This document shows positions 4,981 to 39,372 of a stretch of DNA of 45,323 bases, piece by piece. Numbering within the stretch: the stretch's first letter is position 1; each line of letters begins with the position of its first letter. Under the pieces are notes generated by a model. The model searched no databases, was not told where the DNA came from, and saw only the letters and a list, made by a program, of their open reading frames with translations. The translations under genes were made by a program, and so were the position numbers. Origin of the DNA: Halanaerobiales bacterium (GTDB lineage: Bacteria; Bacillota; Halanaerobiia; Halanaerobiales; DTU029). The stretch is taken from positions 1 to 45,323 of the forward strand of contig JARRCS010000026.1 in the NCBI GenBank assembly GCA_029981855.1, written 5' to 3'.

Positions 4981-5262
4981 GCCTCACTATCGTTCGGCAA
5001 CTTACTTTTTACCTTCAAACAACTGCAAATAGATGTTGAAGAGATGTTTGGGAATTTTTTGTATATGACTCTTGGTGAATCGGAGTTAAAAATCAGGTCG
5101 AGCCACAGGAGATGGCGAGCTTATCAAGGGTCAGGATGACCCATTTGATAAGTTTGCCTGATTTTTAACGGAGATGAACCTTAGAGTCATCAAAAAATTT
5201 CCACTGAATCGAAAACATCTATTTGTAGTTTGCAAAAAAGAAATTTCCTATGGTATATATCT
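4981..5262. repeat. Family A nested inverted repeat, copy 1 (full length)
   Basis: Outer arms AACTGCAAATAGATGTT (from 5021) and AACATCTATTTGTAGTT (to about 5232) pair. Inside them further paired segments occur in register: AATTTTTTG with CAAAAAATT, ATGACTCT with AGAGTCAT, GTTAAAAATCAGG with CCTGATTTTTAAC, and a terminal hairpin CTTATCAA/TTGATAAG enclosing GGGTCA/TGACCC. Flanks CGTTCGGCAACTTAC and AAATTTCCTATGGTAT also recur at other copies. With the spoVT terminator it fills the 440-bp gap between the flippase and spoVT; no gene is seen in the gap. Confidence 0.85.
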
Positions 5263-26978: not shown

Positions 26979-28490
26979 TTAACCTCTGGGAATTAGTATC
27001 TGCTGACCAACCTGCAGCTGTCTGGGATCAGCAATATTATTAATCTCGATAAGCCTCTCTACTGATACCCCGTACCGCTGAGCTATTAGATAAAGGGTAT
27101 CACCGGGTCTGACAGTATAGGTAAAAAAGCCTTCTTCTTCAACCACTTCAATTGGTCTTTCAGTAACACCTGTGATAATCGGTACTCTGACCACTTCGGT
27201 TACCAGTAAATTCACATCCATGATGGCCCTTACCGAGATTCTCCTTTCATCAATTCTTTCCGCAGTTACCCGGTCAACACTTACATCGGCAATGGCATCC
27301 ATCTCGGCGGTTACTTCGGGGATATCAATAAAACTACTAAAGGTTATACTACCTGAGGTAAAATAAACCGGTTGCTGCGGCAGGTCGGCAACATAAATAA
27401 TGTTAACATCGACGATACCATTGATAATAACACCGCCACTAGTTGTTTCAGCACTAACGCTTCCTCCTCTGACCATGCCAGTCGCCCTAATCACCCGGGA
27501 TATATCAGGATTTTCCTCCGGAATTGTAATCTGATCTCTTTCCAGGATCCTGGTCCTCTTTTCAGCAACTACCCTCTCCACCAGCACCGTTCTCCTAATC
27601 GGGAAGAACCTATCCCTGGTTACAATCTCAATGGGAATCTCTACTACTTCCTCCCTGATTACCAGAATTCTGAAGTTGGCCCCGATGGTTTTACGAACCC
27701 TTCTATTATCTACCCTCTCAGCCTCCTCTTCAGTAATGGTAATATCTACAAAGGGTGACATCTTAGGGGTTACCCCCCTAAAGATAAAGGATTCGGTAAA
27801 GGGGAATTGCAGGTTTACAAATTCTACTGTTCCCTGGGTATTAACATATAAGAGATTATTATTAATTACCCCTCTGACAATTACCCGGTCATAATCGGTA
27901 GTTATATCAACGATCTGAGGACTAGCTTCAAGGCTGATAATCCTTCTGATATCTGGGGCTTCTGTCGGAAGCCTTTCAACATCTCTCAGTTCCCTAGTAA
28001 ACTCTCTTTCCTGTAACTGGTGCCGAATTCTGAAACGCTCCCTTTCTATTTCAATCCCCGGCCGTTCCTCAATAAACTTGACTACCTCGGGGGCGGTAAT
28101 TTCAATATCACTGGTTACAACAAACTCTACCCCGATTAAACGGTCATTAATTAAATAGAAGTTAATATCAGATATACTGGCTACTATATCTGCCTCAAGA
28201 CCCCGTCTTGCCCCTCTAACTGCTACCCGGTCCGTGAAATTAAAGCTTCGCCTGATACTGATAACATTAGAAGGATCTTCAGCCGAAGCATAAAAGATGG
28301 TTGACCTAATTATACCGCTAAAAACAACATAACCTGTTTCCAAATTAACATCAGTAATTTCCACCCGGGCATTAACACTGACAACCCGTTCGGCCGGAGG
28401 TAGTCTAGTGGGGATAGCTACATTTCTGACTACTTTGGTCTCTACCGTTCTCCGGGCAATAACTTCACTGATCTGCAGTTGATCCGGCAT
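26979..28490 (-). CDS. SPOCS (DUF3794) x3 + LysM protein A, SipL-like
   Basis: 503 aa, no signal peptide. About three SPOCS/DUF3794 repeats (residues roughly 15-135, 150-290, 300-440): each has a beta-rich core and a gxi...iYva-type strand (GIIRSTIFYASAED, GVINNNLLYVNTQG, GIVDVNIIYVADLP), then an end strand such as VVFSG or VVRVPI. A LysM closes the protein (YTVRPGDTLYLIAQRYGVSV to LQVGQQILIPRG). SPOCS + LysM is the layout of Clostridioides difficile SipL, which binds SpoIVA during coat assembly in the mother cell. Strong SD AAAGGAGG, 7 nt before ATG. It is the first of four linked paralogs, so it may be a SipL orthologue or a duplicate. Confidence 0.85.
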   Translation of the reverse strand: MPDQLQISEVIARRTVETKVVRNVAIPTRLPPAERVVSVNARVEITDVNLETGYVVFSGIIRSTIFYASAEDPSNVISIRRSFNFTDRVAVRGARRGLEADIVASISDINFYLINDRLIGVEFVVTSDIEITAPEVVKFIEERPGIEIERERFRIRHQLQEREFTRELRDVERLPTEAPDIRRIISLEASPQIVDITTDYDRVIVRGVINNNLLYVNTQGTVEFVNLQFPFTESFIFRGVTPKMSPFVDITITEEEAERVDNRRVRKTIGANFRILVIREEVVEIPIEIVTRDRFFPIRRTVLVERVVAEKRTRILERDQITIPEENPDISRVIRATGMVRGGSVSAETTSGGVIINGIVDVNIIYVADLPQQPVYFTSGSITFSSFIDIPEVTAEMDAIADVSVDRVTAERIDERRISVRAIMDVNLLVTEVVRVPIITGVTERPIEVVEEEGFFTYTVRPGDTLYLIAQRYGVSVERLIEINNIADPRQLQVGQQILIPRG

Positions 28491-28629
28491 CTTAAAACCT
28501 CCTTTCCTTAAACTTAGGCTTTCCTTATTTTAATTATCCTTTTAATCTTCTGTGGATTTAAATTAACCCTTCTCGTCTTTGGTTCCATCTTTTTTCCCCT
28601 TTTATCTGCCAAAATCATCCCCCCCTTTG

Positions 28630-28860
28630 AATTAGGTAACCTAAATTTTTCCCGGAGATGAACCTTAGAGTCATAAAAAATTTCCTGCGACGCACTCGAT
28701 GTGCTAGTGTCTAAACCATCATTGCGTAATTTAAAAGAAGGTTTAGACCGACGCGCTCGATGCGCTAGTGCAGAAACCATCATTGCGAAAGTAAAAAGAA
28801 GGTTTCTGCAATCGGAAACATCTATTTGCAGTTTTCAAAAAACAAACGTATTTAATTAAC
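28630..28860. repeat. Family A repeat, copy 5 (right half, interrupted by family B array)
   Basis: AGGTAACCTAAATTTTT, GAGATGAACCTTAGAGTCAT and AAAAAATTTCC match copy 7 closely. At the point where copy 7 reads ACTGA there are instead 125 bp (28686-28810), after which ATCGGAAACATCTATTTGCAG resumes. The left arm is absent. The 541-bp gap 28491-29031 holds only this, the terminator at 28988-29025, and AT-rich sequence; an open frame across it (28514-28783, minus) has no SD and no family features. Confidence 0.78.
28688..28810. repeat. Family B: tandem pair of about 61-bp hairpin units
   Basis: Unit 1 (28688-28748) and unit 2 (28749-28810) share the frame CGACG-stem-TCGAT-stem-TAGTG, then CATCATTGCG. 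Each folds into two hairpins. Stem 1 is GCAC/GTGC in unit 1 but GCGC/GCGC in unit 2; stem 2 is GTCTAAACC/GGTTTAGAC in unit 1 but TGCAGAAACC/GGTTTCTGCA in unit 2. The differences between units are compensatory in both stems. Confidence 0.85.
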
Positions 28861-29031: not shown

Positions 29032-30672
29032 TTATCCTTTCGCATCGATTATCCTACGTGGTACACAGATCTTCTGACCGATCTGTAAGTTGTTAGGATC
29101 GATATTGGGATTGGCTCTTAAGAGAGCATCAATGGTGGTACAGTACCTCCTGGCTATCTTCCAGAGTGTATCTCCCGGCTGTATTACATAAACTATATAG
29201 GAAGGAGGACACTCATCTTCAACGACGGGTGAAATAATAACAATATCGATCACAATCTCCATCTGCCTGAACTCGGTTACCTTGGCAAACTTACGTAAGA
29301 CTGCCGTAACTTCTAGAGTTCTTTCATTGATTATCTCAGCAGAAGCCCTGGTTACCGTAACTTCGGTATGGACATTCATGCCGGGCTCGGTTCCCGCAAT
29401 ATCAATGAAATTCTCGAAACCGAAAAATCCTTCTACAAAATGAACCGGCTGCAGGAGATAGGGTTCTTCAACATCAGCCACATACAAAACACTGGCTGCA
29501 ATTCCTTCTTCTGGAACTTCGCCTTCAGCTAATTCTGCTAATCTGGGGTCTGCCGTAATCAATACCCCACCTTCTTCAGTTGTTGCAGTATATCCAATCA
29601 CACGGGCATTGGCCTCAATAATCCTTTCGACATCAGGTTTTCCTGGTGGAATATTGATTCTTCCGCTTACAGTCTCATGAACCGTAGCCTCGCCAACGAC
29701 ATCCTCAACCCTGAGCAACTCTCTTTCAACTTCAACCAGATCACTAATAACATCGACGACGACCGTTACCTGTTTGGGTTCGGTAACCTTGACAAAGAAC
29801 TGGACTACTACATTTACCTCAACAGTATCCTCATCAATAAACTCAAAAGAAACCCTTTTAATGGTTAGATTGACATGAACCGTCATACCGGGTTCTGCAC
29901 CGGGAACATCGATAGCCTCACTGAAGGGGAAAGACCCCTCCATAAAGTGAACCGGCTGCTGAAATTCCTCCGGGGGGACATCGGCCACATACATTACACC
30001 GACAAAGATTTGACCATCTACTATAACTACTCCCTCTTCAGAAATTTCGGTTGTGACATTCATAATCTCTGGTGTTACACTTAAAATCCGTTCAATCGGG
30101 GGTTTTTCTTTAGGTCGTGTCACCCGGCCTTCAATGACAGTGGTTACAGTGTTTTCACCAATTACATCCTCAATCCTCAACAACTCCTCAGTGATATTCT
30201 CCTCGGGGATGCCGGTGATATCCGTAATAACGGTAATCTGTCTATATTCGGTAACCTTAACAAATTTGGTCAGTACAACGGTAATCTCAATTGTCCTGGG
30301 ATCAATCCGCTGGAAGGAAACCCTTCTTATATTTATATCTGTAAAGACGTTCATGCCGGGTTCAGCTTCCGGGATATCAACAGAATTGACTAAAGGAATC
30401 TGCCCCTCTGTAAAATGAACCGGCTGCCGAAAATAGGGTTCTTCAACATCTGCTACATAGATTACACCTACATCAATTTTTCCGGTGATGTTGACAACAC
30501 CGTCTTCAATATTAGCCACGATATCTGTCAGGTTTGCTCTAACATCGATTACTCTCTCAACATCCGGTTTGGTGGCCGGAACAGTAATCTGCCCTGTTAC
30601 GGTCTCTGAAACGGTATCTTCCCCAATTACGAACTCTACTCTTATTAGTTCTTCCTCAAAGGTAATAGCCAA
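29032..30672 (-). CDS. SPOCS (DUF3794) x3 + LysM protein B
   Basis: 546 aa, no signal peptide. Three very similar SPOCS repeats (about 5-150, 155-305, 315-480): each starts with a 'VIGEDTV / VIGENTV / VVGEATV' strand, then KPDVERVIDV-like, a GVxYVADVxExxQPVHF segment, an IDIAGTEPGMN- or DVPGAEPGMT-type loop, and a final FVKVTE strand. A LysM follows (YVIQPGDTLWKIARRYCTTI to LQIGQKICVPRR). Start choice: TTG at 30672, with AAAGGAGG 7 nt upstream; the apparent TTG six codons earlier overlaps that SD. The role is inferred as spore coat morphogenesis by analogy with SipL. It has its own terminator, so it is probably monocistronic. Confidence 0.85.
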   Translation of the reverse strand: MAITFEEELIRVEFVIGEDTVSETVTGQITVPATKPDVERVIDVRANLTDIVANIEDGVVNITGKIDVGVIYVADVEEPYFRQPVHFTEGQIPLVNSVDIPEAEPGMNVFTDINIRRVSFQRIDPRTIEITVVLTKFVKVTEYRQITVITDITGIPEENITEELLRIEDVIGENTVTTVIEGRVTRPKEKPPIERILSVTPEIMNVTTEISEEGVVIVDGQIFVGVMYVADVPPEEFQQPVHFMEGSFPFSEAIDVPGAEPGMTVHVNLTIKRVSFEFIDEDTVEVNVVVQFFVKVTEPKQVTVVVDVISDLVEVERELLRVEDVVGEATVHETVSGRINIPPGKPDVERIIEANARVIGYTATTEEGGVLITADPRLAELAEGEVPEEGIAASVLYVADVEEPYLLQPVHFVEGFFGFENFIDIAGTEPGMNVHTEVTVTRASAEIINERTLEVTAVLRKFAKVTEFRQMEIVIDIVIISPVVEDECPPSYIVYVIQPGDTLWKIARRYCTTIDALLRANPNIDPNNLQIGQKICVPRRIIDAKG

Positions 30673-30710
30673 TCTTTTTCCTCCTTTCAATTTAAATAAT
30701 TTATCAATTA

Positions 30711-31402: not shown

Positions 31403-33187
31403 TTATACTCCATAAGGTCCGACTTCATTGACGTTAAACTGGATGTTCTCGGTAACTTTAACAAATATATCTCCAATTACCTTCTGAGTTAGGACATCTC
31501 CGGCAGGACTTAAGATCGGTTTGATAAAGGATATTTCCGGAATTACATCTACATTCATACCTGGCCTTGCTCCGGTTATCTCGACAAAGGTACTGAAGGG
31601 AACATTCTCTTCCTGGTGAAGTTCAACATTATCTTCACTGATAAAGAAGATCTGTTTACGGATTATCCCCTGTACAATAACCTTATCACTGATTACTACC
31701 GTATTGAGATTCTCAAAGACGGCATCAATTTCCTTAATCTTGATTGCCGGCTGATCTAAGGTAACAGTAGTTTCACTTAAAATCTGTTTGGTATTTTCAC
31801 CGATTACCTCTGGTAACATAACCAGCGAATCATCACCTGTTGCAACATTTATCTGAACCGTCTCAGTTACTTTAACAAATAATTCCAGAACTATCTCCTG
31901 GCTAACAGTAGTTCCATCCGGACTTAATTCCTGTTTGATGTGCTCAACATTCGGGTGTACCTGAACATTCATCCCAGGTTCTGCCCCCGGTATTTCAACA
32001 AACTCACTGAAGGGGATATCTTCTGCCTGGTGATGCTCAACATCATCTGTTCCAATATAGAATAACTGTTTGTGGATTACACCCTGGATAATAACCTTAT
32101 CTTCGATCACATCAGCTACCAGATCAATAACCTCTGCCGTTACATCAACAATTTTTACCGCTGGAACAGCCAGAGTTACTTCATTATTAATCATTGTCTG
32201 AACAGAATTCTCACCGATTACCCTCTCTACCTTAACCAGAGGCCCTGTTCCTGTTTCCACAATTAGTTGCTGCACAGATAAAACCTTTACAAAGAACTGT
32301 AAGACTACCTTCTGATGCAAGACATTACCATCCAGAATTAAATCGGAGACAATGTGTTCTATAGTTGGTTCAACGAGAACATCCATCCCCGGTTCAGCCC
32401 CTGGAACATCAACGAAAGTACTGAACTCAACATCTTCAGCCTGATGGTGGATAACATTGTCTGTACCTACGAAAAAGATCTGTTTATGTATGATACCCTG
32501 TATGATAACTTTATCTGTTATTACATCTGTTATCAGCTCTGTGATCGTTGCATTGATGTCCCTGACCTTGATAGCTGTCATCACTAGAGGAAGATCACTT
32601 ACCTCCATCGTCTGCACTACGTTTTCACCGATAACAACCGGGGTTTTAATCAACTCTAAACCTCCTACTTGTTGTAATTCAGGCATATGCAAACCTCCTT
32701 TACTATTTTCTTGGATTTGCTGTACTGACAGCTCCTCCTCTTCATCCTGAACTTCTGATTCAGAAATATCTTGGATTTCAATAACCTCTTGCTCTTCCTC
32801 AACCCCTTCTTCATTAATTTCTGGTTTATCAAAATCATTATCTAATTCCTCTGTATTTAATTCTTCTTCAATTAATTCCTCCTTTCCATGGTCATCACTA
32901 AGGCATCCTTCATTATCTTCGGGGGTAAAAATGTGATGAAAGGCATAGATCTCATGAACCTTTCGTGGTTTTAAATCATTTTCCTCAGATTCTCGAAAAT
33001 CAGTATTTTTCTGATAAGCTAGTTCATAGGCCTTTCTATTTAATTTTGGTACTGGTTTCGGTCGGCTAAGAACCCCTTCTTCCAAAATGTCATTTATTTT
33101 ATTAAAATTAGTCCAATAGTGGTATAAATAATAAGTACCTATCATAAAACCGGCAATTATTCCCAGTAAGATAAACCAGCCTAACAA
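31403..33187 (-). CDS. SPOCS (DUF3794) x3 protein C with N-terminal membrane segment
   Basis: 594 aa. One N-terminal hydrophobic helix (FILLGIIAGFMIGTYYLYHY, residues about 5-24), then roughly 140 residues of acidic, Glu/Asp-rich sequence, then three SPOCS repeats from residue 168 on. Each repeat has VIGENxxQ, AxKIxxI, a DKVIIQGIIHKQ-FF strand pair, HQxExxPFS, EIPGAEPGM and a closing FVKVTE. No LysM. Start: TTG with G-rich SD GGGGGTGG. Within the frame a perfect SD (AAGGAGG, 32694-32700) and ATG (32686) with 7-nt spacing would produce a 427-aa soluble form that begins like its paralogs (MPELQQ). Either the gene makes two isoforms or a separate upstream ORF was fused to it. Confidence 0.78.
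   Translation of the reverse strand: MLGWFILLGIIAGFMIGTYYLYHYWTNFNKINDILEEGVLSRPKPVPKLNRKAYELAYQKNTDFRESEENDLKPRKVHEIYAFHHIFTPEDNEGCLSDDHGKEELIEEELNTEELDNDFDKPEINEEGVEEEQEVIEIQDISESEVQDEEEELSVQQIQENSKGGLHMPELQQVGGLELIKTPVVIGENVVQTMEVSDLPLVMTAIKVRDINATITELITDVITDKVIIQGIIHKQIFFVGTDNVIHHQAEDVEFSTFVDVPGAEPGMDVLVEPTIEHIVSDLILDGNVLHQKVVLQFFVKVLSVQQLIVETGTGPLVKVERVIGENSVQTMINNEVTLAVPAVKIVDVTAEVIDLVADVIEDKVIIQGVIHKQLFYIGTDDVEHHQAEDIPFSEFVEIPGAEPGMNVQVHPNVEHIKQELSPDGTTVSQEIVLELFVKVTETVQINVATGDDSLVMLPEVIGENTKQILSETTVTLDQPAIKIKEIDAVFENLNTVVISDKVIVQGIIRKQIFFISEDNVELHQEENVPFSTFVEITGARPGMNVDVIPEISFIKPILSPAGDVLTQKVIGDIFVKVTENIQFNVNEVGPYGV
32684..32700 (-). promoter_or_regulatory. Internal ribosome-binding site and start codon in SPOCS gene C
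   Basis: AAGGAGG (32694-32700), 7-nt spacer TTTGCAT, ATG (32684-32686), in frame with the longer gene. This SD is better than the one at the outer TTG start. It encodes GGLHMPEL when read through. Confidence 0.7.
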
Positions 33188-33244
33188 TTAACCACCCCCT
33201 TTTCTTGATATATAATATGGTCCTTCCCTTAAAAGTGTGCAAAG

Positions 33245-33281
33245 CAAAAAAAAATAGTAGCAGGTTTTTTCTCCTGCTACT
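33245..33281 (-). terminator. Terminator after SPOCS gene D
   Basis: AGTAGCAGG/CCTGCTACT perfect stem with A-rich loop, followed on the minus strand by nine T. Confidence 0.93.
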
Positions 33282-33295
33282 CCAAGAAATCTATC

Positions 33296-35227
33296 TTATT
33301 CTGCAAAAACCACTACTTCAATCGGTATTCTACCTACACCAACAACATTTAAGACCAGGGTTTCTTTAATCACCCTTGTTAATAAACCTAAGGGATCATT
33401 AACATCGGTAACTACCGGGAAAGTTCTTACTTCAGTAACCAGTGGGTCTTCTGAGACTACGACCTCTTCCCTAACCAGAACTGTTTCGGTTGTTATATCC
33501 GTTCCCTCAATTAAGGTAACCACCCGGATAAACCTAGGTGAATCAGCCTCAATCCGGGCCTCCAAAACAATTATCTCTTTAAGCCTTCTTCCCCCATCAA
33601 TCAACCTGTTGATTATTGCCTCAATAGTAACTTCAGGTACTATTTCTCCTGGGCCAATCGGTTCGGGTAAGGGTATTTCTATCCTGAAAGGAACCCTCTC
33701 CTCTATATGCCGGACTATATTATCGGGACAGACAAAGGCGATATCCTTGACCACCGTACCGGTTACCGCAACCAGGTCATCCAGGATAAGTTCGGCTTTT
33801 ACATCGATAATCTCTGCTGCTGTCGGCTCTTTAACCTTAATAGCCGGACACGGCAGCTCGACAATATTCTCGATAATAGCCTGCTTCCGGGCAGCAACCT
33901 CTGCCCGCTGGACAATGGTTATAAATTCAATAATCAGCTGTCGAGGTGGTGGGGGTGGTGGTACCTTCTGTTCAACCAGGAGCTGCTTTTGATTCTCCCC
34001 GATTACAACCGGTAATACTGTCTCTAAACCGGTTTCATCCAGCAAGACATTTAATTGATTGATCTCTTCTACCTTGGCAAAGATCTCGATAATTACCTTC
34101 TCTTCAAGCAAGGTGTCATTTATTAAGTTAAAGATAATATCTTCAATCTCCGGCTCAACCCTGACAGTCTGGCCCGGAGCCGCTCCCGGTATCTCGATAA
34201 ATGTACTGAAGGGCAGATCCTCTACCTGATGACGTTCAATATTATTATTATCAACAAAAAAGATCTGTTTAAGGACAATTCCCTGAACTATAACCTTATC
34301 TTGCAAGACTTCAGTCCTGACATTGATAATGTCAGCATTAATTTCTTTAACCTTTTGGGCCGGCTGGTCTAAGGTTATTTCACTTCTCCGCATCAGCTGG
34401 GTTGTATTTTCTCCGATAACTACCGGTAGTTTAGCTAAAAAATCAAATCCTGAGGCAATCCTGGTCTGAACCGGCTGGGTAACCCTGGCACTAATTTTGA
34501 TCACGTTCTTCTGGGAAAGGGTGATTCCATCCTTAGCCAGGTCAAAGCCGATGAACTCTATTTCGGGTTTAACTTGAACATCCATACCGGGCTGAACCCC
34601 CGGAAGTTCTATAAAGGTTTCGAAGGGTACTTCCTCTGCTTGATGAATAGAATTATTCTCCTGATTGATAAAAAAGATCTGTTTTTGGAGAACACCCTGA
34701 ATAACTACCTTACCGGAAATTACATCGGTCTCAATGTTACTGATTAATCCCCTGATCTCATCAACCTTAATTGCTGTCTGATCCAGGATCACTTCGTTTT
34801 CTTTAATTATCTGTTTTTCACCCTCTGCAATGAGTTGATCCACCTCGACCAGGGTTCCAGCTTTATCAAGGGCCACCCGGATTACTTCCTCTTCTTCCAC
34901 CTTGACAAAGATATTTAACAGCACCTTCTGGGTTACAATAGTACCCTCAGGATTTAATTCAGCAAAAACCTTTTCAATATCTATATCAATCTGGGCTGCC
35001 ATGCCCGGAGCAGCACCAGGAACATCAACAAATGTATCAAAGGGCATATCATCAGTCTGATGATGAACTATGTTATCATTCCCGACAAAAAAAATCTGTT
35101 TATGAATAACCCCCTGGATAATTACTTTATCGGGTATAATCTCAAGAGTAAGGTCTCTAATCTCTGCCTCAATATTTCTAATCTTGATTGCAGGAACTGG
35201 TAATGGCACATCCTGTATACTAATCAT
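33296..35227 (-). CDS. SPOCS (DUF3794) x4 protein D
   Basis: 643 aa, no signal peptide and no LysM. Four SPOCS repeats: about 1-118 (its first strand is missing, starting directly at VPAIKIRNIEAEI), 127-260, 268-400 and 405-560. The fourth is unusual: after VIGENQKQ comes a run of six prolines and a 40-residue insertion before PAIKVKE. Repeats carry the shared DKVIIQG and KQIFFV, HQ, GAxPGM motifs. A C-terminal tail of about 80 residues (ITTETVLVREEVVVSEDPLV) is not SPOCS-like. ATG start; the SD AAGGAGG is 13 nt away, longer than usual, and no better start exists. Probable coat or morphogenetic scaffold by family. Confidence 0.8.
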   Translation of the reverse strand: MISIQDVPLPVPAIKIRNIEAEIRDLTLEIIPDKVIIQGVIHKQIFFVGNDNIVHHQTDDMPFDTFVDVPGAAPGMAAQIDIDIEKVFAELNPEGTIVTQKVLLNIFVKVEEEEVIRVALDKAGTLVEVDQLIAEGEKQIIKENEVILDQTAIKVDEIRGLISNIETDVISGKVVIQGVLQKQIFFINQENNSIHQAEEVPFETFIELPGVQPGMDVQVKPEIEFIGFDLAKDGITLSQKNVIKISARVTQPVQTRIASGFDFLAKLPVVIGENTTQLMRRSEITLDQPAQKVKEINADIINVRTEVLQDKVIVQGIVLKQIFFVDNNNIERHQVEDLPFSTFIEIPGAAPGQTVRVEPEIEDIIFNLINDTLLEEKVIIEIFAKVEEINQLNVLLDETGLETVLPVVIGENQKQLLVEQKVPPPPPPRQLIIEFITIVQRAEVAARKQAIIENIVELPCPAIKVKEPTAAEIIDVKAELILDDLVAVTGTVVKDIAFVCPDNIVRHIEERVPFRIEIPLPEPIGPGEIVPEVTIEAIINRLIDGGRRLKEIIVLEARIEADSPRFIRVVTLIEGTDITTETVLVREEVVVSEDPLVTEVRTFPVVTDVNDPLGLLTRVIKETLVLNVVGVGRIPIEVVVFAE

Positions 35228-39032: not shown

Positions 39033-39372
39033 CTCACTCTGTTCGGCAACTTACTTTATCTTCAAACAACTGCAAATAGATGTTGGAGAGATGTTTGGAA
39101 ATTTTTTGTATATGACTCTTGGTGAATCGAAAGGGAAAATTAGGTCGAGCCACAGGACGTGGCGAGCATGATGCCCGGTTTATGGCATTATCAAATTTAC
39201 CTTTTAAAGGATTATGGCGAAGCCAATTTGATTATTCAGGGTCAGGATGACCCATTGAATTAGGTAACCTAAATTTTCCCTGGAGATGAACCTTAGAGTC
39301 ATCAAAAAATTTCCACTGAATCGGAAACATCTATTTGCAGTTTTAAAAAAGGAATTTCCTACTAGTATTTAA
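39033..39372. repeat. Family A nested inverted repeat, copy 7 (longest)
   Basis: Outer arms AACTGCAAATAGATGTT (from 39068) and AACATCTATTTGCAGTT (to 39343) pair perfectly. Within: ATGACTCT/AGAGTCAT, GGGAAAATTAGGT pairing with ACCTAAATTTTCCC (one bulge), GCCAC/GTGGC, ATCAAATT/AATTTGAT and GGGTCA/TGACCC. The interior is longer than in copy 1 and more branched. It occupies half of the 671-bp divergent gap 38999-39669; the rest (39373-39604) holds two small GC-rich hairpins (39485-39499 and 39510-39537) and no supported gene. Confidence 0.85.

Follow-up and report, generated by a model that had tools for sequence, protein, structure and literature searches.

The stretch analysed here, referred to as the window, is the 45,323-nucleotide contig JARRCS010000026.1 (positions 1 to 45,323, forward strand) of a Halanaerobiales bacterium (GenBank assembly GCA_029981855.1). 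Two minus-strand genes encoding SipL/LysM proteins (ORFs 26979-28490 and 29032-30690, with domain matches to SipL/SPOCS plus LysM) flank a short array of two tandem units that lies inside a copy of a longer repeat, termed family A. An 89-aa minus-strand ORF (28514-28783) overlaps the array. Further along the window, at 31403-35227, the direct repeats D1 and D3 are found ~414 bp apart across the minus-strand ORFs 31403-33187 and 33296-35227. The features of the array and its host repeat are the following, a caret marking the point of insertion here and below:

28623..28687, plus strand: left (inner) part of the host family A copy, left end missing (direct repeat D4; comparison with 5021-5230 and 39068-39342)
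28688..28809, plus strand: inserted two-unit array of 122 nt inside the family A repeat, with CTG (28685-28687) on its left and AATCGG (from 28810) on its right
28689..28748, plus strand: unit 1, GACG...GTCTAAACC...GGTTTAGAC (covariance models R1, 86.2 bits, and R2, 83.1 bits)
28692..28704, plus strand: unit 1 hairpin 1, GCAC-TCGAT-GTGC (folding, covariation)
28709..28748, plus strand: unit 1 hairpin 2, GTCTAAACC / GGTTTAGAC, with a purine-purine mismatch, inner TC/GA pairs and ATTGCGTAA in the loop
28750..28809, plus strand: unit 2, GACG...GCAGAAACC...GGTTTCTGC (R1, 86.5 bits; R2, 81.1 bits)
28753..28765, plus strand: unit 2 hairpin 1, GCGC-TCGAT-GCGC (folding, covariation)
28770..28809, plus strand: unit 2 hairpin 2, GCAGAAACC / GGTTTCTGC (folding)
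28810..28835, plus strand: right end of the host family A repeat, AATCGGAAACATCTATTTGCAGTTTT (direct repeat D2, 17-mer count)
5021..5230, plus strand: family A copy without units, empty site AAATTTCCACTG^AATCG
39068..39342, plus strand: family A copy without units, empty site

An earlier sequence-only reading had described two adjacent units of two hairpins each, in which both sides of a stem change together, and both observations were borne out. TRF reports a period of 61 bp at 28688-28805 (1.9 copies, 85% matches), the two tandem 61-nt units are 86% identical, and both fold more stably than dinucleotide shuffles (-16.7 kcal/mol, z -2.8, and -25.4 kcal/mol, z -4.7) into one 4-bp hairpin followed by one 9-11-bp hairpin. 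All eight stem positions that differ between unit 1 and unit 2 fall into four compensated pairs, one in hairpin 1 and three in hairpin 2, and the remaining differences are confined to loop 2. The 3' arm of unit 2 ends in CTGC, which resembles the CTG that precedes the array.

The host repeat, family A, is palindromic and MITE-like and is abundant throughout the genome, where many deletion forms of it occur. Empty copies read AAATTTCCACTG^AATCGG (CCACTG^AATCGG) and filled ones AAATTTCC(C)CTG, the units and then AATCGG, so that the insert sits between CTG and A, with one nearby A missing. The idea that the array exactly replaces an ACTGA of family A was thus mistaken, and what had been called copy 7 of the repeat is one among many, since the 17-bp family A end occurs ~283 times in the source genome. 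The identical dimer is present in further family A copies, three with the same junction and a fourth with a shortened left side, and most unit copies of the source genome are carried inside family A repeats. Because the same dimer recurs in other family A copies, it was most probably inserted into an ancestral copy of that repeat and multiplied with it; judged from these sequences, the window dimer most likely came along with family A, its insertion being ancestral rather than fresh or local. The array had also been taken for a clean insertion, which holds for the kind of event, unit-exact in the six filled/empty pairs described below, and fails as a local one.

A search of the source genome for such hairpins, as the sequence-only reading had suggested, revealed ~50 copies of the unit: BLAST gives 45 matches, and covariance model R1, for which 13 units were used, gives 52. 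R1 matches occur in 35 of 59 Halanaerobiia genomes, representing 19 of 30 genera, and this class-wide family rules out a purely local curiosity. In a sample of 299 genomes from the phylum the seven with a match are all Halanaerobiia; three more Halanaerobiia genomes of that sample gave no R1 match, nor did the ~290 sampled genomes outside the class at E<=0.001, stricter filters losing weak matches. Hosts of the hairpin-1 pattern include Halanaerobium congolense, H. saccharolyticum, H. kushneri, H. polyolivorans, Fuchsiella alkaliacetigena and Orenia metallireducens. Matches to this pattern outside Halanaerobiia were taken as chance, given ~60 chance matches estimated and model scores of at most 30 bits. 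Four viral contigs also match the hairpin-1 pattern. A clear second hairpin follows 30 of the 37 hairpin-1 matches made in 26 Halanaerobiia loci; of the remaining seven, five have a weaker second arm, one lies at a contig end and one is the outer unit of a nested pair. None of the units examined contains a gene between its hairpins, as an autonomous version would. The window gave no match at gathering score in Rfam 15, and nine loci compared with Rfam to E 1 yielded rRNA, tRNA, a T-box region and sub-threshold families, but no known family for the unit. A literature search of open-licence papers found no description of this repeat. It is a previously unlisted, probably mobile double-hairpin DNA repeat of ~60 letters, spread through the salt-loving Halanaerobiia.

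The covariance model, also proposed at the outset, was built, and the stems keep pairing across copies. Alignment A3, of 85 distinct units, has 93.2% of its stem cells paired and 302 cells with changes on both sides, where shuffles give 82.8; in A4, which holds units from loci fetched later, shares few with A3 and comprises 53 distinct units aligned to the A3-derived model R2, 91.8% are paired, with 186 both-side changes against 52.9 in shuffles. Both alignments were fitted to the structure and so favour it, and the slid controls, in which pairing on A3 drops to 25-44%, used the same alignments. Of 123 distinct units, 112 retain the purine-purine mismatch of stem 2; the 5' GACG of the unit is nearly invariant, and the loops are conserved across genera. 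Among internal stem pairs of A3-A5, G.T departures (61) and A.C departures (51), a comparison blurred by decaying copies, are about equal, so that no RNA-strand preference is visible. Moreover, paired stems with compensatory changes can arise and persist through DNA template switching alone (PMC8794818). The view that compensation reflects selected structure was largely right, in that a real conserved structure exists (93% and 92% pairing); selection for an RNA structure was not supported, as departures are balanced and template switching can also yield compensatory changes. However, template switching does not readily explain the kept stem-2 mismatch or the loops conserved across genera.

Insertion of the unit is best seen at six filled/empty pairs. 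At each of them a single unit of 58-63 nt, or a dimer in the case of the window, has been inserted exactly and with no target duplication:

H. kushneri: 59 nt inserted at CTG^AGTC, inside another unit
Source genome: 63 nt inserted at CAG^AAACC, inside another unit
IS605 tnpB gene: 58 nt inserted at CAGC(A/G)G^CAGG
IS605 region behind tnpB: 62 and 60 nt inserted at CCTCG^CAAGTT
Family A: 122-nt dimer or 61-nt single unit inserted at CTG^AATCGG
Terminator-like hairpin: 59 nt inserted at CTC^AA

For tnpB, IS605 and the terminator-like hairpin, the empty site comes from a related copy and not from the identical locus in a sister strain, and a site in the ilv region of H. saccharolyticum, where no clean empty site is available, was excluded from the six pairs. 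The insert begins one base before GACG and finishes at GTG (or TGC), and the target motif beside the insertions is loose. Two of the insertions, from different genera, disrupt another unit at homologous positions. Seven IS605-type elements carry at least one unit between tnpB and the right end, some units in them apparently having been lost by unit-unit recombination, and a second larger repeat family with an embedded unit occurs at eleven loci of G027 and its named records.

These larger repeats lend themselves to another explanation, in which the unit has no dedicated mobility and is a quasi-palindrome spread by family A, IS605, the G027 repeat and recombination, its stems being kept by template switching. 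Many copies do ride in larger repeats, template switching can make and keep hairpins with compensatory changes (PMC8794818), and the balance of G.T and A.C departures agrees with it. We nevertheless consider this explanation doubtful: units were inserted exactly at unrelated sites, twice at a homologous in-unit spot in different genera, the stem-2 mismatch is retained instead of being corrected, and loops are conserved across families.

A further layer of information comes from the genes next to which units are found. In Halobacteroidales and relatives, units adjoin tRNA 3' ends and regenerate the CCA (thirteen tRNA-adjacent loci). The overlap between unit and tRNA is four bases, 3' ACCA, in most cases examined (Halobacteroidales tRNAs and two loci of genome G001), and several tRNA sites have CACCA on both sides of the unit; at a tRNA-Gly gene the shared sequence is CATC instead of ACCA. 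For tRNA-Val, an apparent empty form reads CCCACCA^TTTTATTTAG, and the filled form has a unit with CACCA on both sides followed by TTTATTTAG, which provides a seventh filled/empty comparison. With gene names read from translations, sense units abut AAAGGAGG or AGAGGAGG, the Shine-Dalgarno sequence, of acpP in Halanaerobium and Orenia; two genera show the same for rpsP, and two genomes for a flagellar-operon gene. Units located after rpsH and tRNA genes are antisense, and units also occur in rRNA operons. This placement means either that the unit prefers highly transcribed spacers as targets or that some copies have since been recruited to a function.

Sense units beside Shine-Dalgarno sequences, together with conserved loops and covarying stems, are what would be expected of a cis-acting structured RNA that serves in transcribed spacers as a processing, stability or translation signal, its spread being secondary. 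Units next to tRNA genes and rpsH are nevertheless antisense, pairing departures show no RNA-strand bias, copies interrupt the tnpB gene and one another, and most source-genome copies ride in family A, all of which makes a primary role as RNA unlikely.

The flank of the insertion sites also bears on how the unit may move. At 15 of 40 sites the left flank matches the 3' end of the element itself over at least 3 nt, against 7.7 expected after re-pairing (p 0.00045), and at 10 of 34 against 4.8 expected (p 0.007) when the six tRNA sites are left out; an automated first pass, with some false units included, gave p 0.0002. The 40 contexts were picked by hand once the pattern had been seen, some of them are related by descent, and a left flank may be what is left of an older unit; for these reasons the resemblance is a lead and not proof.

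With respect to a mobilising enzyme, Pfam Y1 matches, fragments included, occur in 32 of the 35 genomes with units and in 13 of the 24 without (p 0.0015), a test that ignores kinship and transposon load; three genomes have units and no Y1 match. In Halanaerobium and G001 the RAYT-like Y1 genes are mostly flanked by other repeats, no unit was matched within ~1 kb in the surroundings examined, and one Y1 locus of the source genome gave no unit match. Ten RAYT-like Y1 genes are accompanied by GGTACC-type palindromes (Halanaerobium and genome G008) or GGGACGGTTC repeats (G001). RAYT was rejected as the mobiliser, with no support from adjacency and weak support from distribution (p 0.07). Some IS605 copies contain units internally and not as their ends.

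Taken together, the six duplication-free filled/empty pairs, the tRNA-Val comparison, the occurrence in 19 genera, the covariation, the kept mismatch, the flank resemblance and the Y1 association support the reading of the unit as a non-autonomous ~60-nt mobile element of single-stranded DNA, akin to REPs or to IS200/IS605 ends, to which we assign a probability of about one half; against it stand a search that found no cognate enzyme, the use of related copies as empty sites in three events and the A lost from family A. In this proposed model, the element would move as one folded DNA strand with two hairpins and would be cut and joined by a single-strand endonuclease supplied in trans, for which a Y1/HUH transposase is the most plausible candidate, while the 5' arm of stem 2 would pick the target, for example as the TGGTG complement of tRNA CACCA ends. 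The dimer would have reached its present position in the window inside family A. The choice of target is suggested by the resemblance of the left flank to the element's own 3' end, to which the 5' arm of stem 2 is complementary. It is a tentative and rather improbable idea that the base of stem 2 both closes the hairpin and selects the target through this arm, with compensatory changes retargeting the element, which would then be a minimal guide-programmed mobile DNA.

Among known systems, IS200/IS605 ends and the PATE-like, ends-only copies (PMC7290912) share with the unit a duplication-free insertion by a short target resembling their own end, and insertion of this kind, 3' of a short target, was found at the six pairs and tRNA-Val. 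The unit differs in carrying neither tnpA nor tnpB, and IS605 right ends in these genomes end in GTCAA whereas the unit does not. Inserts of 64 nt in tnpB are described for H. hydrogeniformans (PMC7290912). GTAG REPs, which are associated with TnpAREP/RAYT, are likewise short folded extragenic repeats without a gene of their own, with conserved bases by the hairpin and a stem imperfection, the E. coli REPs requiring a stem bulge (PMC8266576), and their single-strand cleavage at a short motif may by analogy apply to the unit. In contrast to them, the unit has two hairpins, head-to-tail arrays and no terminal GTAG tag, and the RAYT-like genes fetched show no unit beside them.

The 5' GACG, which is CGTC on the other strand, could place the unit in the superfamily of CGTC-tagged REPs. 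Both have this conserved tag beside a small hairpin, occur inside longer palindromes (REP dimers in the CGTC case) and lack a known transposase (PMC3733652). CGTC REPs are described there as a single hairpin with an 8-9-bp stem and a 4-5-nt loop beside an unpaired terminal CGTC tag, arranged chiefly as head-to-head dimers and almost never head-to-tail. In the unit, however, GACG lies beside a 4-bp stem with a 5-nt loop, a 9-11-bp hairpin follows, the first C of the CGTC tag is paired in stem 1, and arrays are head-to-tail. With two defining features failing, stem and hairpin on the one hand and dimer arrangement on the other, membership of this superfamily is very improbable.

Fungal mitochondrial double-hairpin elements also have two hairpins and are short, thought to be mobile and located in intergenic regions or rRNA genes, and for those of Allomyces no flanking duplication is reported (PMC10085805, PMC2800124). 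They differ in belonging to eukaryote organelles and in the RNA route suggested for them there, and are likened to the unit by form, not sequence. MITEs resemble the unit in being non-autonomous, present in many copies and near genes, but the unit has neither the terminal inverted repeats nor the target duplication that were looked for; it is the host, family A, that is MITE-like.

Hairpin repeats are common in bacteria. To our knowledge, few of them have a class-wide record that combines nested insertions and filled/empty sites with covariation. A word of caution that follows from this family is that covariation need not mean functional RNA. If the guide reading were true, stem covariation would record retargeting rather than the upkeep of an RNA fold, for instance retargeting to tRNA CACCA ends, where the CCA is restored by the element. 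An element of ~60 nt that inserts whole, regenerates tRNA ends and is perhaps guided by its own stem would thus represent a small and testable system of single-strand transposition.
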